From positions 2,560,001 to 2,624,000 of the forward strand of contig NZ_NQYC01000001.1 of NCBI RefSeq assembly GCF_003600835.1: a stretch of DNA of 64,000 nt, written 5' to 3'. Numbering within the stretch: the stretch's first letter is position 1; each line of letters opens with the position of its first letter. A model generated the notes under the pieces. It saw only the letters and a list, made by a program, of their open reading frames with translations. It did no database searches and was not told where the DNA came from. Shown here piece by piece: positions 4,801 to 21,745 of this stretch. Made by a program: the position numbers and the translations under genes. The stretch is from Bacillus sp. PK3_68 (GTDB lineage: Bacteria > Bacillota > Bacilli > Bacillales > Domibacillaceae).

Positions 4801-4975
4801 ACCTGAGAGTTTAACCCTATCTTCAATAGGGCCTTCCCCTTTGGTGGCGTACTTAAACGCGCTCTCCAGAGGTGCGTCCCATTGTGGTTCTTCTACCTGA
4901 GAGATTAATTCCAAGGGCCTTTTTGGAACTTGCTCCTTCGGTGGCTTATTGCTCGCACTCTCCCACAATCGTCAT
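4801..4975 (-). promoter_or_regulatory. Tandem glycine riboswitch
   Basis: Two copies of the glycine aptamer core lie in series on the minus strand. Each has a GGAGAG-type P1 start, a conserved CACCGAAGG or CACCAAAGG segment, and the CTCTCAGGTA close (plus-strand TACCTGAGAG at 4800-4809 and 4894-4903). A short linker joins them, then the terminator at 4761-4800 follows. Family knowledge: such elements usually control glycine cleavage genes (gcvT operon) or glycine transporters. Here the downstream genes are an IscA-like gene and purU. Confidence 0.93.
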
Positions 4976-4990
4976 CCGCTATTTTTATTC

Positions 4991-5019
4991 AGAATAATTT
5001 AAATATTGGTGATTGTCAA
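4991..5019 (-). promoter_or_regulatory. Sigma-A promoter of the riboswitch operon
   Basis: On the minus strand a perfect -35 TTGACA (5014-5019) is followed after 17 bp by TATTCT (4991-4996). Transcription would begin about 10 bp before the first aptamer. Confidence 0.7.
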
Positions 5020-5040
5020 TTGTTTTCCCAATTCTCTTAC

Positions 5041-5658
5041 CTATAGACTAGATCCTCCATAATGAAAAATAACAAAACGTTCATTGTCATTTTTTTCATA
5101 GAAACCCGGCACTCTCACTTCTTTCACCAGTTGAAATGGAGTATACACTTCAAGAAATTGGATGTACTCCGCTGTCGGATAGTAAAGGACAATATCAACA
5201 GACCGTTGATGCTCTTCAACTGAGTGCAGGATATGATGGACGACCTTCATGAAAATTTGGATCGAAAAAGGATTGAAGAAGTAGAACCGATTGTCTGCCT
5301 TTTCGATCTGATACTCCTCTGCCGCGCAGCATACAAAGCGAATAGATTGATCCGACCTCTTCTTCTTTTTCATATAATCGGCTTGATTTTCAAGTGCTTC
5401 CTGGTAAAGCTGGCCGTTTACCTCAATCCCTGTTACCCGAGCGTGAAAACGATGATGGATATAAAATAGTAAACGCCCTTTTCCACAGCCGAAATCAACT
5501 ACCCCATCTGTTCTTTTCACCTCATACTCCCGAAAAAGCTCATCGATGGCCTCATAGGGGGTTGCCTCATAACGATTATAGTGAATTGACTGATATAGCC
5601 ATTCCCATGTGCCGCCTGTCTGAATCTTTAGCAAGCGATCGTATTCTTTTTCATTCAT
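5041..5658 (-). CDS. Class I SAM-dependent methyltransferase
   Basis: A 205-residue Rossmann-type methyltransferase. Motif I is VVDFGCGKGRLLFY, followed by the acidic end of beta 2 in VTGIEVN, and a FFNPFS segment sits where motif IV is expected. Of two nearby ATGs, 5658 has GGGGA at good spacing and is preferred over 5664. The acceptor substrate is not recognisable; the NPF(S) motif is used by N-, O- and C-methylating enzymes alike. It is the last gene of a minus-strand run that begins with an aldehyde dehydrogenase and MsrAB. No clear terminator follows before the riboswitch promoter. Confidence 0.8.
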   Translation of the reverse strand: MNEKEYDRLLKIQTGGTWEWLYQSIHYNRYEATPYEAIDELFREYEVKRTDGVVDFGCGKGRLLFYIHHRFHARVTGIEVNGQLYQEALENQADYMKKKKRSDQSIRFVCCAAEEYQIEKADNRFYFFNPFSIQIFMKVVHHILHSVEEHQRSVDIVLYYPTAEYIQFLEVYTPFQLVKEVRVPGFYEKNDNERFVIFHYGGSSL

Positions 5659-5685
5659 TGCCATTCCCCGATCTGTTTTTCTTTA

Positions 5686-5784
5686 TTATAAAGCGGACGA
5701 TATAATCCACTCAAACGAATACCGCTTGTCAATCTGCTGAACGGACCAATAAATTGGCTCTTGTGGCGAGTACATAAGCGTCAT
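5686..5784 (-). CDS. Possible 32-residue peptide between msrAB and the methyltransferase
   Basis: A short frame from an ATG at 5784 to a TAA at 5686-5688, beginning MTLMYSPQEPIYWS. The same frame stays open back to the msrAB stop, so it may be the tail of a longer lost gene. The ribosome binding site is weak (CGGATCA). It is kept only because the spacing on both sides fits an operon; it could equally be chance. Confidence 0.25.
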   Translation of the reverse strand: MTLMYSPQEPIYWSVQQIDKRYSFEWIISSAL

Positions 5785-5847
5785 TGATCCGTAAAGGTGC
5801 AGAATTGATGGATCAACAAACAGAAGTGGCCAATAAAGGAACTTCTC

Positions 5848-6804
5848 TTATTCGAACAGGCTTTTAAATTCTCCATAGCCCTCTTCTTCAAGCTTATCCT
5901 TTGGCACAAAACGGAGAGCAGCCGAGTTAATACAATAGCGTGCGCGGTCAGGACCAGGACCATCATCAAAGACGTGGCCTAAATGAGCGTCAGATGTTTT
6001 TGCCCGCACCTCAATCCGGCGCATGCCATGAGACGTATCAAGTTTTTCTGCTAGCTCTATCCGGCGCAAGGGCTTCGTGAAGCTTGGCCAGCCGCAGCCC
6101 GCGTCATATTTATCCGTCGAGCTGAACAAAGGCTCTCCTGAAATAATATCCACATAGATTCCCTCTTCCGTGTGGTCCCAATATTCATTATGAAATGGTG
6201 GCTCTGTCGCATTATTTCTTGTTACCTCGTATTGAAGAGGAGTGAGTTCTTCCCGTAATTGCTCATCTGTTTTTTGATCTTTCCAGTTTTCACGAATAAA
6301 TTTTGCTCGCCCGGACCCCTCTTTATAAAGATTGTAGTGGAAGGCATTCTTTTTGTAATAGTGCTGGTGCTTTTCTTCCGCTCGGTAAAAGGGCCTCGCC
6401 GGCAGAATCTCTGTCACGATCGGTTTTTGAAAACGGCCGCTTGCTGCTAATTCTGCTTTCGAAGCTTCCGCCAATTCTTTTTGTTCTTTGTCATGGTAAA
6501 AAATGGCCGTCCTATAGGATGATCCCCGGTCATTGAACTGTCCGCCCGCATCAGTTGGATCAATTTGATGCCAAAACAGCTCAAGTAATTTTTTATAAGG
6601 AAAAACTGCAGGATCATACATGATTTGTACCGCTTCATAATGACCCGTTATGTCAGAGCATACCTCTTCATACGTCGGGTTCTCTGTGTGGCCACCCGTA
6701 TAACCGGAGACAACCTCTTTAATTCCCGGTTGTTCATCAAACGGTGATACCATACACCAAAAACAGCCGCCTGCAAATGTAGCTAGCTTCCATTGTTCAC
6801 CCAA
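5848..6804 (-). CDS. msrAB: Fused peptide methionine sulfoxide reductase A/B
   Basis: A 318-residue two-domain enzyme that reduces both S- and R-methionine sulfoxide in oxidised proteins. The MsrA domain opens with [11 protein letters not shown], whose first Cys is catalytic, and includes the SGYTGG segment. The MsrB domain begins near residue 170 with [12 protein letters not shown], has [12 protein letters not shown], and ends with the catalytic [11 protein letters not shown]. Zinc-binding CxxC pairs of some MsrB proteins are absent. The start is a TTG at 6804 with AAAGGAGTG upstream. It follows the aldehyde dehydrogenase by 25 bp, suggesting a shared oxidative-damage or detoxification transcript. 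No signal peptide, so cytoplasmic. Confidence 0.95.
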
Positions 6805-6829
6805 GAATCAACACTCCTTTACATCCGTA

Positions 6830-8365
6830 TTATTTTCGGTTTCCAGTCTTCAAAAGCTGACGATAGGCCGTTAAGAATTCGCCCCAGTTTCTTTTTTTTC
6901 CCCAAAAGCTGCGAACCAGGCGTACAAATAGTTCATACTTTCCTTCATAAGGGTACCAGTTCACTTCTTTTTTCTTACGGCCCTTGTCCACCATAACGGC
7001 TGTTTGAACACAAAAGCTCTGCATGCCTACATCCCCATGATACGCGCCAATTCCTCCCTCTTTCGTTCCTCCGTAAGGAAGATAAGGATTGGCTACTGTA
7101 ATGATTACATCATTAATAACTGCATTGCCTGATACGAGCCGGGAGACAATGCGCTTGCCTCGTTCTACATCGGCCGTCCAGACACTGGCATTCAAGCCAA
7201 AGCGGGTATCGTTAGCTAAAGAAACAGCCTCTTCCTCTGTCTCGAATGGCATAATCGGCAAGACAGGCCCAAAGGTTTCCTCCTGCATAATGGCCATGTC
7301 ATGATTGACATTCGTTACTATCATAGGTCTAATGAACATCTGATCGTCTGCCCACTGATCTGGGTGCTCACCAGCAATAAGTTCTGCTCCTTTTTCGATC
7401 GCTTCTGTCACATGCTCCTTAATAATGGCTGTTTGCTGGGGAAAAGTCATCGAACCAACATCGCTGTCAGAAGCTGTCCCTTGCTTTAAAGATTGCGTTG
7501 CCTGAACTAAACGACCAACAAATTCTTCATAGACTGACTTGTCCACATACACCCGCTCAACAGACATACACACCTGGCCGCTGTTCGTAAAGGCTCCCCA
7601 AATAGCCCCCTGTACAGCTCTTTCCATATTTGCATCGGCACAAACGATCATCGGGTCTTTACCGCCAAGCTCCAGCAGCGTCGGAATTAATTGCTTAGCT
7701 GCTTCCATCTGAATGATTTTCCCTGTTCGGACAGAGCCCGTGAAATGAATAAAATCCGGCTTGCCCTCTATAAGCGCAGCTCCTAACTCCTTGCCGCCAT
7801 GCGCTACCTGTAATAGACCTCGGGGAAAGCCAGCCGCTTTAAATAAGCTTTCAATTAATACACCAACCATCGGTGTAATCTCGGACGGCTTTAAAATAAC
7901 CGCATTTCCGGCAACGAGCGCTTCAACGATCGGAATCATAGAAAGCTGGAATGGAAAGTTCCACGGGGAAATGACCAATACGGTTCCCCGTGGCTTATAT
8001 TCGATATAAGAGGATTTTCCAATAAATATCAGGGGCGTTTTAACTTTTTTTGTTTTTAACGCGGCAGCTGCTCTTCTTTCAATGTGCGAAATTGAATCAA
8101 CGACTGTCATCACTTCTGTTGTTAATGCTTCCACAGCCACTTTTCCCGTGGAGTCACTAATCACTTTCACGATATGATCCAATTCATCCAGAATGTGAAG
8201 CCGCAGCTTTCGAAGCGAGCGAATTCTCTCTGAAATTGGCAAGTCAGCCCAAGTTAAGCCAGCTCCCTTCGCGCTTTCATAGAACATATCAACTTGTTCT
8301 ACAGATGTTTCCTCCAATACGCCAATGATATTCTTTGTTGCGGGACTTCTCACTGTCCATGTCAT
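6830..8365 (-). CDS. Aldehyde dehydrogenase family protein
   Basis: A 511-residue NAD(P)-dependent aldehyde dehydrogenase. It shows the cofactor-site ISPWNFPFQLSM, the FTGSVRTGK nucleotide motif, the general base Glu in LELGGKDP, and the catalytic Cys in FTNSGQVCMSVERVYV. The C-terminus carries about 45 extra residues rich in aromatic and basic amino acids (NWYPYEGKYELFVRLVRSFW), as in membrane-associated long-chain aldehyde dehydrogenases; membrane contact is an inference. The start at 8365 has GAAGGAGGAACG; the longer reading upstream has none. The substrate is unknown. It leads the msrAB-methyltransferase run. Confidence 0.9.
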   Translation of the reverse strand: MTWTVRSPATKNIIGVLEETSVEQVDMFYESAKGAGLTWADLPISERIRSLRKLRLHILDELDHIVKVISDSTGKVAVEALTTEVMTVVDSISHIERRAAAALKTKKVKTPLIFIGKSSYIEYKPRGTVLVISPWNFPFQLSMIPIVEALVAGNAVILKPSEITPMVGVLIESLFKAAGFPRGLLQVAHGGKELGAALIEGKPDFIHFTGSVRTGKIIQMEAAKQLIPTLLELGGKDPMIVCADANMERAVQGAIWGAFTNSGQVCMSVERVYVDKSVYEEFVGRLVQATQSLKQGTASDSDVGSMTFPQQTAIIKEHVTEAIEKGAELIAGEHPDQWADDQMFIRPMIVTNVNHDMAIMQEETFGPVLPIMPFETEEEAVSLANDTRFGLNASVWTADVERGKRIVSRLVSGNAVINDVIITVANPYLPYGGTKEGGIGAYHGDVGMQSFCVQTAVMVDKGRKKKEVNWYPYEGKYELFVRLVRSFWGKKRNWGEFLTAYRQLLKTGNRK

Positions 8366-9984: not shown

Positions 9985-10025
9985 TAAAAAATCCCTAGAC
10001 ACGGATGAATAACGTGCTTAGGGAT
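9985..10025 (-). terminator. Terminator of the signalling cluster
   Basis: On the minus strand ATCCCTAAGCACG pairs with CGTGTCTAGGGAT (one mismatch) and is followed by a T6 tail. It lies 100 bp after the PAS-GGDEF stop and closes the six-gene run starting at 17413. Confidence 0.75.
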
Positions 10026-10124: not shown

Positions 10125-11110
10125 TTAAAGGCTTTCTTTTATATCTGCAAAATGTGTGACACGATTTCGCCCTTTAGACTTAGATGTGTATAGAGCCTTA
10201 TCTGCTTTGGCCAATATAGAAATATTTGTATCTTCGGGAGTGAAGGTAGCTGCACCGATACTCACTGTTGTGGGACAATGGCTCCAGGAGGCATGTTCTA
10301 TACTCTTTCTTAGCCTTTCAGCTGCTTGCTTAGATTGCTCCTCATCCGCCTCTGGCAAAAGAATGATAAATTCTTCTCCACCGTAACGAGCTACTGTATC
10401 AGTTTCTTTCGAATGTTCCTTTATTATCTGTGCAAATTCCCTCAACACTTGATCCCCAGCAAGATGGCCATATGTATCATTCACTTTTTTGAAATGATCG
10501 ATATCCATAATAAGGAGTGAAAAAGGGACTTTAGAGAGAAGAAAGCTTTCAATATGTGAATCCAGCTTGTCAATAAAATAACGCCTGTTTTTCAGTCCAG
10601 TCAAAGTATCTGTTACTGCCAGGCTCTCTAATTTGGCATTTAACCTTATGAGTTCTTCTTGTTTTGCCTCAATATCCCGGTGCAATGCCTCTAATTTTTC
10701 AAGTGCCTCATTTTTAACTCTGTACGCTTCCTCCATTTCTCTCTTGGCATTGCGAATTTCTTTCTCGTAATCAATTCGTCTGCTCATCTTTACAAATACA
10801 CACTCTATGAGCTCTGTTTGATTTCCTTCACCACTTTTCCCATTTAGCAGAACAGGGACATTCTCTCCTTTGTTGGACTTCAACGTTAAATACATCTCAT
10901 CTACATGTCCGTACAGTTGAATAAACGGGTAAAAATAGGTATGAAAAAGAAACTTATTAGCCATCGACATAATCGATTCCATATGATGGTTTAATACATC
11001 ATCTTTACTGTAACCGACCATGTCAAGAAATGCTTGGTTTGCGTACGTGATAACCCCCGACTTGTAATGATGACATATCCACAAGGGGCACGGTCTAGCC
11101 GCTCATCCAT
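10125..11110 (-). pseudogene. RsbP-type PAS domain fused to GGDEF diguanylate cyclase, frameshifted near the start
   Basis: The product would make cyclic di-GMP. The true start is an ATG at 11110 with GAAAGGA; it encodes MDERLDRAPCGYVIIT, very like the opening of the RsbP PAS domain. The rest (GVITYANQAFLDMVGYS, YFYPFIQLYGHVDEMYLTL, VPVLLNG) is in the next frame. Adding one base to the C5 run at 11054-11058 joins them into about 328 residues. A coiled coil follows the PAS domain, then a GGDEF domain with MDIDHFKKVND and an intact RYGGEEF. The inhibitory RxxD site reads KETD. It lies 17 bp after rsbQ, where B. subtilis has rsbP (PAS plus PP2C phosphatase). As written, the PAS start is lost. 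Confidence 0.85.
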
Positions 11111-11127
11111 CTATATGCATCCTTTCA

Positions 11128-11946
11128 CTAGCCATGGTTCTTCTTAAAAGATGAAAGGTATTCTTGTATCAGGCAGACAGTCTCTTTTGGATGACTTAAA
11201 TGTGGGTAGTGTCCTTTTGCCTCCATTAATCGAAAAGTGCTGTTCTTAAGATGGCGTTCCAAATACTTTCCAACTTTTAAAGGAACAATGCTGTCTTCCG
11301 AACATTGTAAAATAAGTGAGGGGACCTCTACTTTTGCTAAATCTTCTCTATGATCCGAGAAAAAAGTAGCTTCGGCAAACTTGCGGGTAACAGCTGGATC
11401 AGTTGAACAAAAACTTGTTTCCAACTCTTGAGTCAACATAGGCTGATTCGGATTTTTCATCGCAAGAGGGGCAAGATAGCTTGCCCAGCCAACAAAATTC
11501 ATCTCCATCATGTCCAATAACTCTTCTACATCTTCCTTTTCAAAGCCTCCAAAATAATCAGGCTCATCATTTAAATAATGAGGAGATGGGCCAAGCATAA
11601 CTAGACATTCAAATGACTCGGGTCTTTGAATAGAGGCCAGCATGCCTATCATTGCACTGACAGAATGCCCCACGAATATAACTTTTTTTATTTCTAACAC
11701 ATCAATAACTTCTAGCAAATCCTTTACGTACCCTTTAAGAGTTCCATATCTCTCATAACTATAAGCCGTTAAGTCTGATTTTCCTGAGCCAACGTAATCG
11801 AATAACACCACTCGGTATTCCTTCTCGAAATGGGGAGCGACAAATCGCCACATATTTTGATCACACCCAAATCCATGCCCGAAAACGATGGTTTGCTCCC
11901 CTTGACCAGTCACTTTTACATTATTACGAATAAGAATGTTTTCCAT
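11128..11946 (-). CDS. rsbQ: RsbQ-type alpha/beta hydrolase
   Basis: A 272-residue alpha/beta hydrolase closely matching B. subtilis RsbQ throughout (FGCDQNMW, FDYVGSGKSDL, GHSVSAMIGMLASI, CSTDPAVTRKFA). The triad is Ser95, Asp218 and His246, at RsbQ-equivalent positions. RsbQ is required for energy-stress activation of SigB and is thought to hand a small hydrophobic ligand to the PAS domain of RsbP; it is also the bacterial relative of plant D14/KAI2 receptors. Here the downstream partner carries GGDEF instead of a phosphatase. The ATG at 11946 follows AGAGGGC. It sits 15 bp after the tandem pterin-synthase gene and 17 bp before the PAS-GGDEF gene. Confidence 0.93.
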   Translation of the reverse strand: MENILIRNNVKVTGQGEQTIVFGHGFGCDQNMWRFVAPHFEKEYRVVLFDYVGSGKSDLTAYSYERYGTLKGYVKDLLEVIDVLEIKKVIFVGHSVSAMIGMLASIQRPESFECLVMLGPSPHYLNDEPDYFGGFEKEDVEELLDMMEMNFVGWASYLAPLAMKNPNQPMLTQELETSFCSTDPAVTRKFAEATFFSDHREDLAKVEVPSLILQCSEDSIVPLKVGKYLERHLKNSTFRLMEAKGHYPHLSHPKETVCLIQEYLSSFKKNHG

Positions 11947-11961
11947 TTCATAAAAGCCCTC

Positions 11962-12780
11962 TTATTCTTTTGTTGGTCCACAGTATTCGAAATAATTTTT
12001 TGCTGTTTCCCAGAGTCCTACTTTATGCAGATTTGGTAAGCGCGATTGAAGCAAGTCCCAAAAGACGATCGACATAACTTCAGCGGTAGGATTTAACCCG
12101 TTAAACTCCTCAGTATCTAGATTCAAATGTTTGTGATCAAACTTTTGTATAATTGTTTGATCAACGATCTCGTCAAGTTCAGCCAAATTTATAATCATTC
12201 CTGTAACAGGATCAACTTCTCCCTCGACTGTTACTTCAAGAATGTAGTTGTGCCCATGCCCGTTCGGATTATTACACTTTCCAAAGATCTCTTTGTTTTC
12301 CTCATCTGATAACTGATCACTATGCAATCGATGTGCAGCAGAAAAATGATATTTTCTCGTTAATTGAATCATTGAACCTTCTCCTTTTTGAGAGAGCAAA
12401 AATGGATTCTCATGCAATATTATTTTATGAAGCTTACAATCTTCGAATCTATCTTTTAATTCATTCCATATATACGCCACAATATTTTCTGTCGTCGGGA
12501 TATGTTCTACAAAAAAAGGGTGTTCACGGTTTAGAAACCTGCCGTCTAATTCCTCTAGAACTATCCCCTTCACTACACGGTCAACATCTGTAATATTCAC
12601 TACAATACCTGATTTTTCATTAAGATGCCCTTTAACTGTCACTTCTAACAGATAATCATGGCCATGACCATTTGGATTGCTACATAGCCCAAATACTTCT
12701 CTGTTTTTGTCTTCATCCCACGATGGAACACGATAACTATGGGCTGCTGAAAACTCTACTTTTCTCGTTAATAAAACCAA
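11962..12780 (-). CDS. Tandem 6-pyruvoyl-tetrahydropterin synthase fusion (PTPS-PTPS)
   Basis: A 272-residue protein made of two 136-residue PTPS/QueD domains. Domain 2 (137-272) resembles the animal-type PTPS: zinc ligands His150, His175 and His177, catalytic Cys169 in FGKCNNPNGHGHNY, Asp215-His216 in KFDHKHLN, and substrate-anchoring Glu258. Domain 1 keeps His14, Cys33, His39, His41 and Glu124, but the catalytic Asp-His pair is Asp79-Gly80, so it is probably impaired. The start is a TTG at 12780 with GAGGTGAG. An internal ATG at 12372, exactly at the domain border, has AAGGAGAAGG ahead of it, so domain 2 could also be made alone. PTPS acts on dihydroneopterin triphosphate; no folE or queCEF genes are nearby. 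Confidence 0.9.
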   Translation of the reverse strand: MVLLTRKVEFSAAHSYRVPSWDEDKNREVFGLCSNPNGHGHDYLLEVTVKGHLNEKSGIVVNITDVDRVVKGIVLEELDGRFLNREHPFFVEHIPTTENIVAYIWNELKDRFEDCKLHKIILHENPFLLSQKGEGSMIQLTRKYHFSAAHRLHSDQLSDEENKEIFGKCNNPNGHGHNYILEVTVEGEVDPVTGMIINLAELDEIVDQTIIQKFDHKHLNLDTEEFNGLNPTAEVMSIVFWDLLQSRLPNLHKVGLWETAKNYFEYCGPTKE

Positions 12781-12831
12781 GGTCTCACCTCTTCTTCATT
12801 CAAGAATTTAACAATGCCAGCTATATTACTA

Positions 12832-15378
12832 TTATATCCTTTTATTCACCTTAGTTAGTGCCGCTTTCTGTATCTCAACAAATGTTTTGTTAAACTCTTC
12901 CACTGATAAAGGTTTGCTAAATAAATAACCTTGTACTTCATTACATTTTTGCTGTTGAAGGAAATAAAGCTGTTTGTCTGTTTCCACGCCTTCAGCAATC
13001 ACACTAACTTTTAAATTACGAGCCATTGCAATAATGGTAGCAATGATTTTATTATCATCAGAATCATCTTCGATGTCTCGAACAAATGACTTATCAATCT
13101 TTAGAGTATGGAAGGGGAACTTTTTAAGATAACTTAATGAAGAATACCCAGTTCCAAAATCGTCAATCGCAATTTTAACGCCTAAGTCTTTTAGAGCGTT
13201 CAGCTTAGCAATTACATAATCTTCGTTATACATTGCTATCGTTTCTGTAATTTCTAATTCTAGATATTGCGGTTTGAGACCCGTTTCCTCCAATACTTTG
13301 CTTACTTGCTCTACTAAGCTTGCTTGCTGGAATTGCCGCGGAGAAAGATTAATAGATATAGTCATGTGTGGAAATCCAGAATTTTGCCATTTCCGCATTT
13401 GCTTACAGGCAGTCTGTAGAACCCACTCGCCAATCGCCACAATCAGGCCGGTTTCCTCAGCTAATGGAATAAACTCCTCTGGGGAAATCACTCCCAATTG
13501 TGGATGGCGCCAGCGAATTAAGGCTTCACTTCCAGTAATAACTCCAGTATTTATATCGACCTTAGGCTGGTAAAATAAAGTAAATTCGTCATGCTCCAAT
13601 GCTTGACGCATACCTTTTTCCAGAATCGCTCTTCTCTGAATCCAGTCATTCATGCCGGATGTATAGAATTGGTGATTATTTCTACCTTGTTCTTTGGCAC
13701 GATACATAGCTATATCCGCATTTTTAATTACATCTTCGATATTGTCCCCATCTTCCGGAAACATGCTTATTCCTATGCTTGATGTGATAAACAATTCGTT
13801 TCCTTCATATAAAAAAGGCTTTTCCAGTGCTTTTAAAATCGTTTGTGCCATGCTATTCGCCGCTTCACTGCTAGTATTGGGTAAAAGTAAAATAAATTCA
13901 TCTCCCCCAATGCGTGACATCATTTCACCTTCTCTAAGAAAAGGCAAGATACGATTAGTGACAGCTTTCAAAATTACATCTCCTGCCGAATGGCCCAGCA
14001 AATCATTGATAAATTTGAACCTGTCCAAGTCAAGAAATAAGAATGCCATCGGGCTCTTTTCATTTATTTCTGCTAACTCTAATGCGGTCTTATTAAATAA
14101 ACGCGAATTAGGAAGCCCCGTCAAAAAATCATAGTAAGCATGGTACTGTATTTCTTTATTTTTTTCTTTCAGCTCATCGGTATAATCTAGCAGGTTTAAT
14201 GACATAACATTCACTTGATTGGCAAGTGATCCTAATTCATCACGGCGTTCAATCAATACCTGCTCCCCGAAATTCCCCTTAGCGATTTCATTTACCTTTA
14301 ATAAAATTTGATTAATAGGCCTAACAATATATCTAGCTAAGAAATAACTAATAACAAAGACGAGAATTAAAACAGCAATAGAAATCATTAAGTTGTTTAA
14401 CAACTGTTTATTTAATACGCTTTGGATCACTTTGTAATCTGTCACTATCCCAATAACATAAGGATCTTCAGAAGAAACAGGAACAAAGCTTTTAAACACT
14501 TTTTTACCGTTCACCGTGCTCTGAAAACTAACGAGCTTGCCCGTTCTCATCGCTTCTCTTACAGCTTTAATATCAGCTTTTTTGTCCTTATACTGGTACT
14601 TACCAAATTGAATATCCTTATTTGCCAGTTCTATAAATCTCTTTCCATTCTGCTCTGTATAGACAGGCGGAGATCCGAAAGTTTCCGGATTAAAACCGGT
14701 AATATTTAACAGCATATCATTATCGCTTAATGTTTTCCTTACAATGGCATTGGGACCAATACGTTTCTCAAAGTCTGTAATCCGCTTGTCACGCATATAG
14801 GGGCTGATTATATAATCGGTCGTGCCGTCATAATAATATCCCCATTTATCCACATGATCAGGGTTAGAGGCAGAAACATTTACAGGACCTGACCAATAGT
14901 TTGGAAGTTTTTGCCCTTGGGCAATCGTAACATTTTTATTGTTGAATAGCTGTTGGAAGGCAGTATACCAATATCCCCATTCTTTCGTACTTAAGTTTCT
15001 CTCGTGGGGATCAGAAGATTTTACTCCCACAATGTCTCCCTTCTCCTTAACAAGCAGGGTAATATGGGAGACATCCAGCTTTTTGCTAAGCTCAACGAGC
15101 TGTTCATTCGTCACATTATTTATATGAGGATCTAGTGCGTTCTCTGCCGCAATAGCTGCTGCACGGAGTTTTTCCCCTATTTCACTTTCCAGGGACTCCA
15201 CCCCAAATTGTGAATGATTAATGGCTATACTAATTTCATTCACTAAGAGCTCTGTCTGTTTTTCCTGATCTTTTATTAACAGATCTCTCGTATAGTAGTA
15301 AGATAAGATATTATTTAAAATTAGTATGGCTGTTACTATCGTAGCAAAGATGAATGATAGTTTTTTCCTTAAAGACAA
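12832..15378 (-). CDS. Membrane GGDEF-EAL cyclic-di-GMP enzyme with extracellular sensor domain
   Basis: An 848-residue signalling protein. A first membrane helix lies at about 8-30, an extracytoplasmic Cache-like domain at about 35-320, a second helix at about 328-350 and a HAMP domain at about 350-400 (RRDELGSLANQVN). The GGDEF domain has an intact RIGGDEF at 490-495 and the EAL domain an EALIRWRHP at 618-626, plus IDDFGTGYSSLSYL. Both cyclase and phosphodiesterase activities are possible; the GGDEF inhibitory site is not canonical (REGE). It is 51 bp ahead of the PTPS fusion and 64 bp after an SDR gene, all on one strand, suggesting co-transcription. The Cache ligand is unknown. Confidence 0.92.
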   Translation of the reverse strand: MSLRKKLSFIFATIVTAILILNNILSYYYTRDLLIKDQEKQTELLVNEISIAINHSQFGVESLESEIGEKLRAAAIAAENALDPHINNVTNEQLVELSKKLDVSHITLLVKEKGDIVGVKSSDPHERNLSTKEWGYWYTAFQQLFNNKNVTIAQGQKLPNYWSGPVNVSASNPDHVDKWGYYYDGTTDYIISPYMRDKRITDFEKRIGPNAIVRKTLSDNDMLLNITGFNPETFGSPPVYTEQNGKRFIELANKDIQFGKYQYKDKKADIKAVREAMRTGKLVSFQSTVNGKKVFKSFVPVSSEDPYVIGIVTDYKVIQSVLNKQLLNNLMISIAVLILVFVISYFLARYIVRPINQILLKVNEIAKGNFGEQVLIERRDELGSLANQVNVMSLNLLDYTDELKEKNKEIQYHAYYDFLTGLPNSRLFNKTALELAEINEKSPMAFLFLDLDRFKFINDLLGHSAGDVILKAVTNRILPFLREGEMMSRIGGDEFILLLPNTSSEAANSMAQTILKALEKPFLYEGNELFITSSIGISMFPEDGDNIEDVIKNADIAMYRAKEQGRNNHQFYTSGMNDWIQRRAILEKGMRQALEHDEFTLFYQPKVDINTGVITGSEALIRWRHPQLGVISPEEFIPLAEETGLIVAIGEWVLQTACKQMRKWQNSGFPHMTISINLSPRQFQQASLVEQVSKVLEETGLKPQYLELEITETIAMYNEDYVIAKLNALKDLGVKIAIDDFGTGYSSLSYLKKFPFHTLKIDKSFVRDIEDDSDDNKIIATIIAMARNLKVSVIAEGVETDKQLYFLQQQKCNEVQGYLFSKPLSVEEFNKTFVEIQKAALTKVNKRI

Positions 15379-15442
15379 ACTATCTCCCCCAATTCGAGCT
15401 GTTTATCTATAGATTTTTATTCTGTTAGCTGCCTTTAGCGTC

Positions 15443-16123
15443 CTATAATACGCCCTTGGGCGGGGTTAAGGTAATTTCGTCCATCCGAACGTGAAGAGGA
15501 GTCGCAGCCACAAATGAGACGACGCGCGCAACATCATTCACGTCCAACATATCTTCAGATGAAAACCCTTCGGCCTCTTTCCAAATATCCGTATACGTAG
15601 CACCTAACTGAATATTTGTAGTAAAAATATTGTATGGATACCATTCTTCTGCTAACACGCTTCCCAAGCCACTCATCGCTTGCTTTGAAGCTGCGTACAC
15701 AGAATTCATCGGAAGGCTTCTTTTAGTTGCAATGGAACTTATATTAACGATGCGCCCTCCTTCTTCTTTCAGTAACGGAAAAGCCTGTTGAATACAGTGA
15801 AACACACCAAAAACATTCGTTTGAAAAACAGCCTCCCATTCTTTAGCTGCAAACTCCTCAAACGCTTTAAAATAACCAATGCCTGCATTGTTAACCAATA
15901 CATCTATCGCTTTGTGTCGCTCACCGATACGTTGGAAAACCTCTTGAACTTCTTTCTCGTCCATAATATTCATCTGCAAAGGGATCAAATTTTCTATATG
16001 ATTGTCTACATTCTTCTCGCGGGTTGTGGCATATGTGACAAACCCCTGCTTGGCGAGCTCTAAACTAATAGCCTTGCCAATTCCCTTTAAACCGCCTATA
16101 ACAATAGCTACTTTCTCTCTCAT
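15443..16123 (-). CDS. SDR family reductase within the pterin / c-di-GMP cluster
   Basis: A 226-residue short-chain dehydrogenase with the GGLKGIG cofactor motif, VNNAGIG, the Ser in VNISSIA and the VYAASK Tyr-Lys pair. It lacks the insertions of larger SDRs. Sepiapterin and pteridine reductases belong to the same superfamily, so together with the PTPS fusion it could finish a reduced pterin; this is inference, as no diagnostic residue shows it. The PTR1-type TGxxxRxG motif is absent. The ATG at 16123 has AAAGAGGTG and starts 12 bp after the DNA methyltransferase stop. Confidence 0.85.
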   Translation of the reverse strand: MREKVAIVIGGLKGIGKAISLELAKQGFVTYATTREKNVDNHIENLIPLQMNIMDEKEVQEVFQRIGERHKAIDVLVNNAGIGYFKAFEEFAAKEWEAVFQTNVFGVFHCIQQAFPLLKEEGGRIVNISSIATKRSLPMNSVYAASKQAMSGLGSVLAEEWYPYNIFTTNIQLGATYTDIWKEAEGFSSEDMLDVNDVARVVSFVAATPLHVRMDEITLTPPKGVL

Positions 16124-16135
16124 ATTGCACCTCTT

Positions 16136-17413
16136 TCATTTGGTAACTTTATATACATAGCCAAAAATGTCCGTTAACACATCATATTCGCTATGTTCTT
16201 TTATACTATCAATCCAATTATTAGCGATTTTCAAATGAGCGTTATGAGCCCTTTGCTGCAACATCGGAAAATCGATAACATAACGATCGCCTTCAATCTC
16301 TCCATGTATAAGATGATACAAGATCCAACTTAATGGATTGTCGACAGCTAGCTGATAGCCCTCTTCTGTTAATGAAGGGACTGGTCTTGAAATGGCAGTG
16401 CAAATCTCACTTTTTATGCCGTCAGGAGTTATAGAAGGCATAATCAATTGAAATGTAACATTTTGATTTTCAAGTACATCTATTTCGGAGGTATACTCAT
16501 AAGCATAAACGGTAACAGGCATATCGCCTATTTCAGCCTTTAGACCTTGGTATTCATTTAAAGAAAAGGGGATTTTTGTTTTCTTTCTATACTCTCTTCC
16601 ACAAAGATAAGATCTATTAAAATCTTCAATGAGCTGGTGTACGGTGACATTCTTCCCTAACGAGCTTATTCTGCTCGCTGTAGTTTGTATAGCTAGTCGG
16701 GAATTGTCACTTGCCAGCCATCTCCTGTTCATCTTCTCTGCTGTAAATGACAGGGTGCCGCTCCCACAATAAAAATCACCGACTAAAGCTCCTTCCTCTG
16801 TTGTCATTTGCAAAATCCGTTCCATCAATTTTTCCGGTTTTTGTGTAGCGTAGGACGTATCTTCCTGTCCCAGGTATTCATACTTCCCGCCATCATCCCA
16901 AACAGAAGAATAGGTGATTCCCTTCTTTTTAAAATAATTTTCCGTTTTGGCATAAAAAAATAAAGATTCATGATTTAAACCAAATTGGGAATGTTTATAG
17001 ACAGCGTCATCAGCAAATTTCCAAATAACCTCTCCAAGAAAATGGTTCGCTCCAAATATTTCATCTAAAATGACTTTTAGATAATGCCCTTCTTTTTGCG
17101 ATGTATGAAAAACAAGGATTCCTTTTTCATTTAACAATTCCCTGGCAGCTTCTATTCTTTTCCGATAATCAGACCGATAAATATCTGATCGATAAAAATT
17201 TCTAATAGTATTGGCCTCGTTCCAAGGATCAACAATGTGTTCATTTAATGTTCGGTTAAATACGGAGAAAACCCATCCAGAATTAAACGGGCCATCAAAA
17301 TAAATCATATCGAACGCTTCCCGGTATCCTTGATTCATCAATCCTTGCATAATATATAGATTGTCACCGTAAAACAGACTGTTTTCTTTCATTGCTTCTG
17401 GCTCGAATTTCAT
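16136..17413 (-). CDS. DNA methyltransferase (N6-adenine/N4-cytosine type) with atypical DGPF motif
   Basis: A 425-residue protein of the beta-class DNA methylase family. Motif IV comes first (residues 36-43, DMIYFDGPF), then TQKPEKLMERIL before the SAM motif DFYCGSGT at about 213-220. The usual DPPY/DPPF catalytic motif reads D-G-P-F, an unusual change at the first proline. About 180 residues beyond the methylase core are of unknown role and contain the segment after RKKTKIPFSLNE. The ATG at 17413 with AAGGTGAGG is preferred over an upstream one. No restriction nuclease is adjacent, so it is an orphan methylase or a repurposed one. It heads the minus-strand signalling run. Confidence 0.82.
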   Translation of the reverse strand: MKFEPEAMKENSLFYGDNLYIMQGLMNQGYREAFDMIYFDGPFNSGWVFSVFNRTLNEHIVDPWNEANTIRNFYRSDIYRSDYRKRIEAARELLNEKGILVFHTSQKEGHYLKVILDEIFGANHFLGEVIWKFADDAVYKHSQFGLNHESLFFYAKTENYFKKKGITYSSVWDDGGKYEYLGQEDTSYATQKPEKLMERILQMTTEEGALVGDFYCGSGTLSFTAEKMNRRWLASDNSRLAIQTTASRISSLGKNVTVHQLIEDFNRSYLCGREYRKKTKIPFSLNEYQGLKAEIGDMPVTVYAYEYTSEIDVLENQNVTFQLIMPSITPDGIKSEICTAISRPVPSLTEEGYQLAVDNPLSWILYHLIHGEIEGDRYVIDFPMLQQRAHNAHLKIANNWIDSIKEHSEYDVLTDIFGYVYKVTK

Positions 17414-17600
17414 AATATCCTCACCTTCTTTTCTCTGTACCTCTGCGATATTGTAACTCATTCCTAATAAGGAAACGAGATGAATTAATACTATTAATTG
17501 TACTTTTTTTAATGAATGGTAGATACTCTTTTTATTTTCCCTTAATATACATGGTGCCTAAACTTGAGTGTAACATTACTTCTATCTAACTAAAAAGCTG

Positions 17601-20294: not shown

Positions 20295-21745
20295 ATGTAC
20301 ACATTTTTAGCAGGAATTGCCCTTTTAATCATTGGTTACTTTACGTATGGCAAATTTATTGAGAATATTTTGGAGTAAAAGAAGAGCGGGCGACACCCGC
20401 TTATGTCAATAATGACGGAGTGGACTACGTACCGATGAGTACATCGAAAAACTCCTTAATCCAATTGTTGAACATTGCCGGCACAGGACCGATCTTTGGG
20501 CCTATTATGGGGGCGCTTTATGGGCCAGTTGCTTTTATTTGGATCGTGGTTGGCTGTATTTTTGCAGGCGCTGTTCATGACTATTTAACGGGCATGATTT
20601 CCATCCGTAACCGCGGCGCCCACTTGCCTGAACTAGCAAGTAAATTTTTAGGAAAAGTAATGAAACACATAGTCAATGCCTTTGCTGTTCTTCTTCTCTT
20701 ATTAGTAGGAACTGTATTTGTGTCGACGCCGGCCAGCTTGCTCCATGTTTTAATGAATGGCAAAGTCGCCTTAAGCATTCTTATCGCTGCTATCTTTATT
20801 TATTATATTTTAGCTACATTGCTCCCTGTAGATAAAATTATCGGTCGTCTTTATCCGTATTTTGGTGCCCTCCTAGTGATTAGTGCTCTTGGAGTAGGCA
20901 TCGCTTTAATCTTTACAGGGGCACCAATCCCAGAACTTTCTTTAACTAACTTCCATCCTGATCATGCACCGGTATTTCCATTGTTGTTCTTTACGATTAC
21001 TTGCGGCGCACTTTCAGGATTTCACGCTACCCAAACACCCATTATTTCACGCACAACTCAAAATGAAAAGCAGAGCCGAAAAATCTTCTACGGCATGATG
21101 ATTGCGGAAGGAATTATCGCTATGATTTGGGCGGCGGCGGCAATGAGCTTATTCGACGGTTATGGTGGTTTAAACGAAGTGCTTGCCGCAGGTGGTCCGG
21201 GAGCAGTGGTCAGCGAAGTGTCAACCTCCATGCTCGGTGCCGTCGGCGGAACACTGGCTGTGCTTGGTGTCGTTGTTTTACCAATTACTTCCGGAGATAC
21301 AGCTTTTCGGAGTGCTCGCATGATCATCGCTGAATATTTGAATATTGGCCAAAAGAAATTTTCGAGCCGCTTATGGATTGCTCTGCCGTTATTCGTTATT
21401 TCTGTCTTGCTTACACAGATCGACTTTAATATCTTGTGGAGATATTTTAGCTGGGCGAATCAGTCCACGGCAGTCATTGCCTTGTTTGTTGGCGCTATGT
21501 ATTTATATATTGCCCGAAAAAACTACTGGGTTTCGCTCATACCGGGAACCTTTATGCTTGTCATGGTTCTCGCTTACATCTTAAATGCACCAATTGGTTT
21601 TGGCTTATCCATGACAACCTCCTGGATCGGCAGTACTATCGGCACTATTATACTTGTTGCCCTGTTCTTTCACGCCGCTAAAAAAGCACGCGCAAACGAC
21701 CTGCCAATTGAAGAGGATGTGTCCGACTGGAATAGTGTAGCCTAA
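20295..21745 (+). pseudogene. cstA: CstA-family carrier (probable pyruvate/peptide transporter), frameshifted near the start
   Basis: A polytopic membrane carrier of about 484 residues, the short form of the CstA family. The ATG at 20295 follows GGGGGGAG and encodes MYTFLAGIALLIIGYFTYGK, then stops at 20376. The remainder continues in the next frame through VPMSTSKNSLIQLLNIAGTG, the family signature region. One T missing from the T4 run at 20368-20371 explains the break. Family members carry pyruvate (BtsT) or peptides. It follows LytS-LytT and a cre-like site, so induction by pyruvate and repression by sugars is the inferred control. Two hairpins lie after the stop. Confidence 0.85.

Follow-up and report, generated by a model that had tools for sequence, protein, structure and literature searches.

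A candidate pterin and cyclic di-GMP gene cassette next to an RsbQ-PAS-GGDEF pair in Bacillus sp. PK3_68

The 64,000-nucleotide stretch of the Bacillus sp. PK3_68 genome analysed here (contig NZ_NQYC01000001.1, positions 2,560,001 to 2,624,000; hereafter the window) contains six minus-strand genes that, in the window's list of open reading frames (ORFs), span positions 10125-17461. They encode an N6/N4-type DNA methylase, a short-chain dehydrogenase/reductase (SDR), a membrane sensor-HAMP-GGDEF-EAL protein, a tandem 6-pyruvoyl-tetrahydropterin synthase (PTPS), the alpha/beta hydrolase RsbQ and an RsbP-type PAS-GGDEF protein, separated by gaps that the ORF coordinates put at 12, 64, 51, 15 and 17 bp (Table 1). 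The original prediction, made from the sequence alone, had proposed that these genes form a signalling system in which a pterin sets the level of cyclic di-GMP (c-di-GMP). The six genes, their gaps and the terminator that it described are all real, and Pfam searches bore out its identification of the methylase, SDR, HAMP-GGDEF-EAL protein, tandem PTPS, alpha/beta hydrolase and GGDEF protein. We found that genes for pterin synthesis are associated with the gene for the sensor-GGDEF-EAL protein throughout Bacillales, and that the cluster in the window is made of two modules, a four-gene cassette (DNA methylase, SDR, sensor-HAMP-GGDEF-EAL and tandem PTPS) and a resident RsbQ-PAS-GGDEF pair.

Pterin genes beside the sensor gene across Bacillales

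We searched 397 Bacillales genomes, sampled evenly from the order, for the tandem PTPS (E-value cut-off 1e-40), the extracellular domain of the sensor (1e-8) and RsbQ (1e-50). The tandem PTPS was present in 22 genomes, at 24 places, and the sensor domain in 54 genomes, which included all 22 with the tandem PTPS. The two lay within 6 kb of each other at 22 of the 24 places (20 of the 22 genomes), where we estimate that chance would produce well under one case; the sensor profile (A5) was made from PTPS-adjoining sensors, a selection to be borne in mind. Individual loci were retrieved by their PTPS gene (the best 80 of at least 593 matched stretches, 582 of them confirmed), and their neighbours were labelled by our own profile searches, in which FolE, PTPS and SDR were the pterin genes sought and many neighbouring ORFs received no label. 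Among the 34 named Bacillota tandem-PTPS loci the sensor lay in the retrieved flank of 31, and was not found in the retrieved flank of L053, L057 and L073.

These 31 loci were of two types. The ten type A loci combined the sensor-GGDEF-EAL gene with PTPS, and a recognised SDR was present in nine. The combination of SDR, sensor-GGDEF-EAL and tandem PTPS recurred in Domibacillus, Metabacillus, Paenibacillus and the genus of the window. Paenibacillus has the gene order SDR-PTPS-sensor; in Metabacillus, Domibacillus and Bacillus wudalianchiensis the order is SDR-sensor-PTPS. The sensor and PTPS genes are 5 to 128 bp apart in nine of the ten loci and 233 bp apart in L043. The proximity of PTPS and SDR genes to c-di-GMP genes, whose absence from relatives had been set beforehand as the test of the original prediction, was found in these genera, in two gene orders. 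The 21 type B loci were partner-switching operons of the form FolE-PTPS-SDR-HATPase-hydrolase-AMP ligase-sensor-STAS-SpoIIE phosphatase-FapA, some of them without some members; FolE was labelled in 18. Operons of this type occurred in many genera, in L036-L039 as well as in the 21 named loci (for example L059 and L062). SiaABCD is a partner-switching system of Pseudomonas that controls biofilm formation, and type B is like it in having a kinase-like HATPase, a STAS protein, a SpoIIE-type phosphatase and a membrane sensor. It differs from SiaABCD in that sensor and phosphatase are separate proteins and in that its operons also encode FolE, PTPS, an SDR, a hydrolase, a ligase and a FapA-like protein; the SiaA NCBIfam match of the type B phosphatase, from which the SiaABCD name was taken, lay far below the cut-off.

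Away from the tandem PTPS, we examined 36 sensor loci from the 397 genomes. FolE directly followed sensor-GGDEF-EAL in five of them (L140, L141, L146, L172 and L173), and was itself followed by an oxidoreductase of a single family, immediately in four loci and after a 5'-nucleotidase in L146; the L141 copy is a Pfam pyridine nucleotide-disulphide oxidoreductase, and the other four cluster with it. All five genomes have two folE genes, and a close cousin that does not have this arrangement (G066) has one. The other 31 loci carried no labelled FolE or PTPS. In a third arrangement, found in two genomes where PTPS lies away from the sensor (G072 and G118), PTPS stands with a GGDEF-EAL protein, an alpha/beta hydrolase, a GGDEF protein, a small protein and an SDR. 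The small protein of G072 had a PilZ match (E 4e-4) that narrowly missed the Pfam threshold, and in this genome the PTPS/GGDEF-EAL group has a FolE gene next to it on the opposite strand. We also observed a gene for an alpha/beta hydrolase of about 250 amino acids directly upstream of sensor-GGDEF-EAL in L139, L142, L146 and L152 (the Pfam assignment was made for L142 and L146, and the L139 and L152 copies cluster with L142).

In a tree of 71 sensor rows, from which the short fragment L171 was left out, all 12 type A sensors formed one clade (support 100/99), whose sister was a group of 17 GGDEF-EAL sensors, five of them with FolE next door; the type B sensors were placed elsewhere. In the best PTPS tree the type A proteins were not monophyletic, but a single clade was not rejected (approximately unbiased [AU] test, p 0.34), so that a single inheritance could still account for them. 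The best tree suggests that the GGDEF-EAL sensor clade recruited PTPS twice, independently, which we do not claim in view of this AU value for one origin.

Genes with no functional link might also be found together if they moved as a block. The patchy distribution of the tandem PTPS (18 of 135 genera) and the unrelated locations that the four-gene block occupies in Metabacillus and the genus of the window are consistent with such hitchhiking. However, the association stays while gene order differs between lineages, different sensor subtypes and c-di-GMP proteins meet pterin genes, and a second FolE copy stands beside the sensor in five genomes. We consider hitchhiking very improbable, and it is quite likely that PTPS/SDR and the sensor form one functional unit.

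The RsbQ-PAS-GGDEF pair as a separate module

The window and Bacillus wudalianchiensis share a genus, which we take to be Pseudobacillus, and G003 belongs to the same genus. In another genome of this genus (G002, locus L181), RsbQ and PAS-GGDEF lie between kept flanks, consisting of the gene at window positions 20420-21745 (presumably CstA-like) and four more genes on one side and HPr kinase on the other, and the methylase, SDR, sensor-GGDEF-EAL and PTPS genes are missing. Conversely, Metabacillus fastidiosus (L041) has the same four genes at an unrelated site without RsbQ. Because these two genomes hold the modules separately, the cassette in the window sits before a pair that exists without it; insertion or loss of the cassette would equally account for this. 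In L181, a different GGDEF-EAL protein of 888 amino acids (4906-7572) follows the RsbQ-PAS-GGDEF pair on the same strand. An intact LytS/LytR pair adjoins the cassette in the window; in the retrieved part of the Bacillus wudalianchiensis genome, just short fragments of that LytS gene match next to the cassette (L031:4182-4426).

Within the pair, the RsbP-like N-terminus that starts at ATG 11110 is out of frame with GGDEF, and the GGDEF frame is open from TTG 11084 only, so in this assembly a frameshift interrupts the PAS-encoding start (window 11040-11110), for which an assembly error and a genuine break would account equally. The PAS match of the GGDEF protein fell slightly under the Pfam cut-off and above that of the NCBIfam PAS model. 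The gene is intact in Bacillus wudalianchiensis (L031:10987-11973), where, as in the window, RsbQ is directly upstream of the PAS protein. Of the distinctive residues of the B. subtilis RsbP PAS domain, the L031 protein keeps C10, Y59, E72 and P86, has methionine for L13 and L48, and has K, L and F for Q53, F55 and C56 (plain B. subtilis numbering, unaligned).

The available text of Nadezhdin, Brody and Price 2011 (PMC3183031) describes RsbQ and the RsbP PAS domain as a bipartite sensing module that also occurs with diguanylate cyclase output, and gives its signal as not known at that date. The window resembles this module in that RsbQ is immediately followed by PAS-GGDEF, and differs from it in that the PAS gene is frame-broken in this assembly and that a pterin cassette is joined to it, in this genus only among the loci seen. 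The original prediction had suggested that RsbQ processes a pterin and passes it to the PAS domain. The then missing signal and the adjacency of the genes, within an operon shared by two congeneric species, would allow this, but the distribution of RsbQ argues against it. RsbQ was found at 46 places in 45 of the 397 genomes, and adjoined the tandem PTPS or the sensor in one of the 45, that of the window itself (and also in G003, which is outside the sample). At the 20 of 46 places that were examined, PAS-GGDEF came next in eight, a PAS-PPM protein was adjoining in eleven (one of them divergent) and a PAS protein with no labelled output followed in one; a labelled PTPS or FolE was present at none of the 20. 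In addition, the G002 genome holds the pair without the cassette, and the PAS frame is broken in the window. We rejected RsbQ as the pterin partner on this distribution, found no evidence for PAS-GGDEF as a pterin reader, and regard the transfer of a pterin from RsbQ to PAS as most improbable.

Table 1. Features of the six-gene cluster in the window
Feature	Position	Strand	Basis
N6/N4-type DNA methylase	16136..17461, start possibly 17413	-	Pfam PF01555 (N6_N4_Mtase), E 1.6e-25
SDR, proposed sepiapterin-reductase-like	15443..16123	-	Pfam adh_short, E 2e-50
Membrane sensor-HAMP-GGDEF-EAL protein	12832..15378	-	Pfam HAMP, GGDEF and EAL; GGDEF and EAL motifs in the translation
Codons of the extracellular sensor domain, residues 38-318 (query A5)	14425..15267	-	Outside any Pfam family
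Tandem PTPS, PTPS-II type	11962..12780	-	Two Pfam PTPS stretches
RsbQ alpha/beta hydrolase, resident module	11128..11946	-	B. subtilis RsbQ 1wom, E 4e-109
RsbP-type PAS-GGDEF gene, frame broken near the 5' end in this assembly	10125..11110, open from 11084	-	
Intrinsic terminator	9985..10025	-	Fold -18 kcal/mol, z -2.43

The terminator at the end of the cluster consists of a stem (9991-10025) and a U run, and was missed by the consensus scan, probably on account of its 9-nt loop. At the other end, the methylase start first noted, 17413 rather than 17461, may well hold, as the purine-rich AAGGTGAGG lies closely upstream of 17413.

Pterin enzymes and sensor domain

Both halves of the window's PTPS carry CxxxxxHGH, which the available text of PMC5041015 gives as the signature of PTPS-II, the form in biopterin synthesis. 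The C-terminal half matched the structures 1b66 and 3i2b with an E-value of 1e-44, against 5e-10 for the 6-carboxytetrahydropterin synthase 4ntm. We take 3i2b and 1b66 to be human and rat PTPS, respectively, and residue roles were assigned from rat PTPS. The C-terminal half kept all catalytic residues checked (the Cys/Asp/His triad and the zinc histidines) in 40 of 40 Bacillota tandem rows and is, as judged by these residues, catalytically complete, whereas in the N-terminal half the catalytic His is replaced by Gly in all 40 and the Cys is kept in 38. The N-terminal half was likewise altered in 40 rows from other phyla, mainly at the Cys, which was kept in six. For these counts we used 40 of the 46 non-Bacillota loci and left out L155, which we treated as a duplicate of locus L073, together with PTPS rows of 230 bits or less. 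A role of the tandem PTPS in queuosine synthesis was considered and rejected, as the 1b66/3i2b match was far above those to 6-carboxytetrahydropterin synthases; such a role is also countered by a separate single-domain PTPS-family gene at C1:1704705, probably QueD. In Candidatus Poribacteria (L075-L100), the tandem PTPS has an SDR nearby at 24 of 24 loci and FolE at 21, with no labelled sensor, and these loci are apparently biopterin operons.

The SDR may be a sepiapterin reductase: its profile (A2, made of six type A and four type B rows) matched sepiapterin reductase 2bd0 over positions 3-224 at E 1e-42. The window genome has a single FolE gene, at C1:1030709, away from the cluster; the reported lack of folE was right for the cluster. 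In the available text of PMC5041015 tetrahydrobiopterin is made by FolE, PTPS-II and sepiapterin reductase. The genes described here resemble that pathway in the PTPS-II motif of both halves and in the FolE-PTPS-SDR operons of relatives, and differ in that the PTPS is tandem, has no catalytic His in its N-terminal half and is tied to signalling proteins. The N6/N4-type methylase family recurs upstream of the SDR in type A (window 16136-17461, L041:5298-6599 and L042:5341-6696), and also lies inside a type B FolE-PTPS-SDR operon (L045:8891-10219), with gaps of 43 and 11 bp.

The extracellular domain of the sensor had been labelled Cache, a name that our searches did not support: among sensor-type Pfam families the nearest was the chemotaxis sensor domain PF21563 (E 0.0028), followed by sCache_3_3 (E 0.05), and neither match reached its cut-off. 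When 36 domain members were compared with sCache_3_3, five matched at E <= 1, the best at 0.012, and the Pfam Cache cut-off was not reached. The WX7E motif of the DcpA periplasmic domain was missing in 35 of the 36 sensor domains, the window's included. We also considered S169 together with P237 as a mark of PTPS-linked sensors, leaving six rows outside four clades out of this comparison and two divergent rows out of the conservation counts. Both residues occur in all 36 linked rows, yet also in L153 and L154, which are without pterin genes, so they are no more than a lead; in one unlinked clade they occur in four and one of 12 rows, respectively, and in the GGDEF-EAL sensor clade without PTPS in none of 17.

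In the available text of a 2026 review of pterin signalling (PMC13259868), PruA, PruR and DcpA act in Proteobacteria and the DcpA of Agrobacterium is pterin-controlled; that portion of the text does not contain the words Bacillus, PTPS, sepiapterin, RsbQ, gram-positive or Firmicutes. Likewise, the word 'pterin' is absent from the available part of a 2022 census of c-di-GMP stimuli (PMC8846402), and among the titles and abstract beginnings listed from the open-licence full-text literature none connected c-di-GMP in Bacillota with PTPS or sepiapterin reductase. The cassette resembles the PruA-PruR-DcpA system (PMC13259868) in that enzymes for a reduced pterin accompany a membrane GGDEF-EAL protein with an extracytoplasmic domain, and the window protein has the GGDEF-EAL output. 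However, the analogy of the SDR to PruA, on which the original prediction drew, was not supported, as the window SDR reads GGLKGIG, with glycine at the place of the arginine in the pteridine-reductase motif TGX3RXG. The route to the pterin would also differ, being PTPS-II with an SDR that is perhaps a sepiapterin reductase rather than FolM/PruA; WX7E is lacking from the extracellular domain; and the cassette belongs to Bacillota. A PruR-fold protein (SUOX fold) was sought with PF00174, which had no match in the window genome or in G003, and had matches in 12 of 25 tandem-PTPS genomes. With TGX3RXG absent from the SDR, WX7E from the extracellular domain and PF00174 from the window genome, we rejected membership of the PruA/PruR/DcpA system. 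Since PruA, PruR and the DcpA motif are absent, the cassette is not the Agrobacterium system and, if it does couple a pterin to c-di-GMP, would resemble that pathway in its working and stand outside it.

A possible pterin input to c-di-GMP and other uses of the pterin

We judge the chances to be even that the locus is a modular pterin-to-c-di-GMP cassette, with its pterin read by the sensor, placed before an RsbQ-PAS-GGDEF pair that exists independently. Taken alone, the proposal that the pterin is the input ligand of the sensor, drawn from gene content and neighbourhood, is nearly as probable as not. The genome's single FolE would provide dihydroneopterin triphosphate, the complete half of the tandem PTPS would convert this to 6-pyruvoyl-tetrahydropterin, and the SDR would reduce the latter to a biopterin-type tetrahydropterin. 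After export to the outer face of the membrane, this pterin would be bound by the extracellular domain of the sensor, whose state HAMP would pass to GGDEF and EAL, thereby setting the c-di-GMP level. RsbQ and PAS-GGDEF would then be a second, independent input to c-di-GMP.

Several observations weigh against a pterin as the ligand. No exporter was seen in the cassette, we know of no pterin-binding signature for the extracellular domain, the match of the SDR to sepiapterin reductase is unspecific, since it ranked fifth of 481 matches with general SDRs scoring higher, and no SDR was recognised at the Paenibacillus locus L072. Furthermore, in 29 of the 54 sensor genomes there is no FolE or PTPS beside the sensor. 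Twelve of the sensors without pterin genes are GGDEF-EAL proteins and others lie in partner-switching operons that have no labelled pterin genes, and a separate clade of 12 sensors in the tree has none with pterin genes. The 29 genomes and the 12-row clade imply that the sensor domain may bind something else. It is therefore conceivable that the direction is reversed, the sensor reading an unrelated outside signal and the c-di-GMP or partner-switch output controlling the pterin as an antioxidant, pigment or exported product. The sensors away from FolE and PTPS would agree with this, as would the extra enzymes of the partner-switching operons (an alpha/beta hydrolase and an AMP-forming ligase), which could modify such a product. 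On the other hand, the four-gene cassette has no transcription factor or known c-di-GMP receptor, a PilZ-like protein being present in the third arrangement only, and the pterin genes come first in most partner-switching loci, a position that fits supply as well as output. We consider this reversal unlikely, although it has to be reckoned with.

Alternatively, the pterin might simply be a cofactor for nitric oxide (NO) synthase, an aromatic amino acid hydroxylase or another enzyme, its neighbourhood with the sensor reflecting shared regulation. When 25 tandem-PTPS genomes were searched, NO synthase, which could use the pterin, was present in 16 and Biopterin_H (aromatic amino acid hydroxylase) in three. 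In G118 (L143, G118:C3:563500-581500), about 7 kb separate the sensor-GGDEF-EAL gene from a gene for NO synthase (G118:C3:580258-581325), which is not next to PTPS. The genomes G163, G230, G285 and G395 have no FolE other than that adjoining PTPS, which as the sole copy would also have to serve folate. These findings likewise count against a dedicated signal. A paper on the NO synthase of Paenibacillus (PMC12189478) mentions tetrahydrobiopterin analogues, in its available text, in general terms only. However, nine of the 25 genomes have neither NO synthase nor aromatic amino acid hydroxylase, so cofactor supply to these two families would explain part of the genomes and not all. In addition, by the coordinates of the matches, neither enzyme adjoins any tandem PTPS place, where the recurrent partner is the sensor. 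Plain cofactor supply is thus improbable in our judgement.

Returning to the pterin as the ligand of the sensor, we tentatively suggest, though this stronger form is rather unlikely, that the extracellular domain might be a direct pterin receptor that works without a PruR-like carrier, and that in Bacillota self-made biopterin-type pterins might act as an extracellular signal with c-di-GMP and a kinase/STAS/phosphatase switch as outputs. If the domain is such a receptor, the patchy spread and the occurrence of the four-gene cassette at two unrelated sites would make this an exchangeable pterin-signal module.

To our knowledge, pterin control of c-di-GMP is known only from systems of the PruA-PruR-DcpA type. 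A Gram-positive counterpart with other enzymes and another sensor would imply that pterins acquired a signalling role on more than one occasion, and would provide a purpose for biopterin-type synthesis in genomes where NO synthase and aromatic hydroxylase were not found. Being small, the cassette lends itself to direct tests of ligand, receptor and output. The pairing of PTPS with the sensor suggests that pterins may serve as a bacterial signal outside the group in which this role is known.

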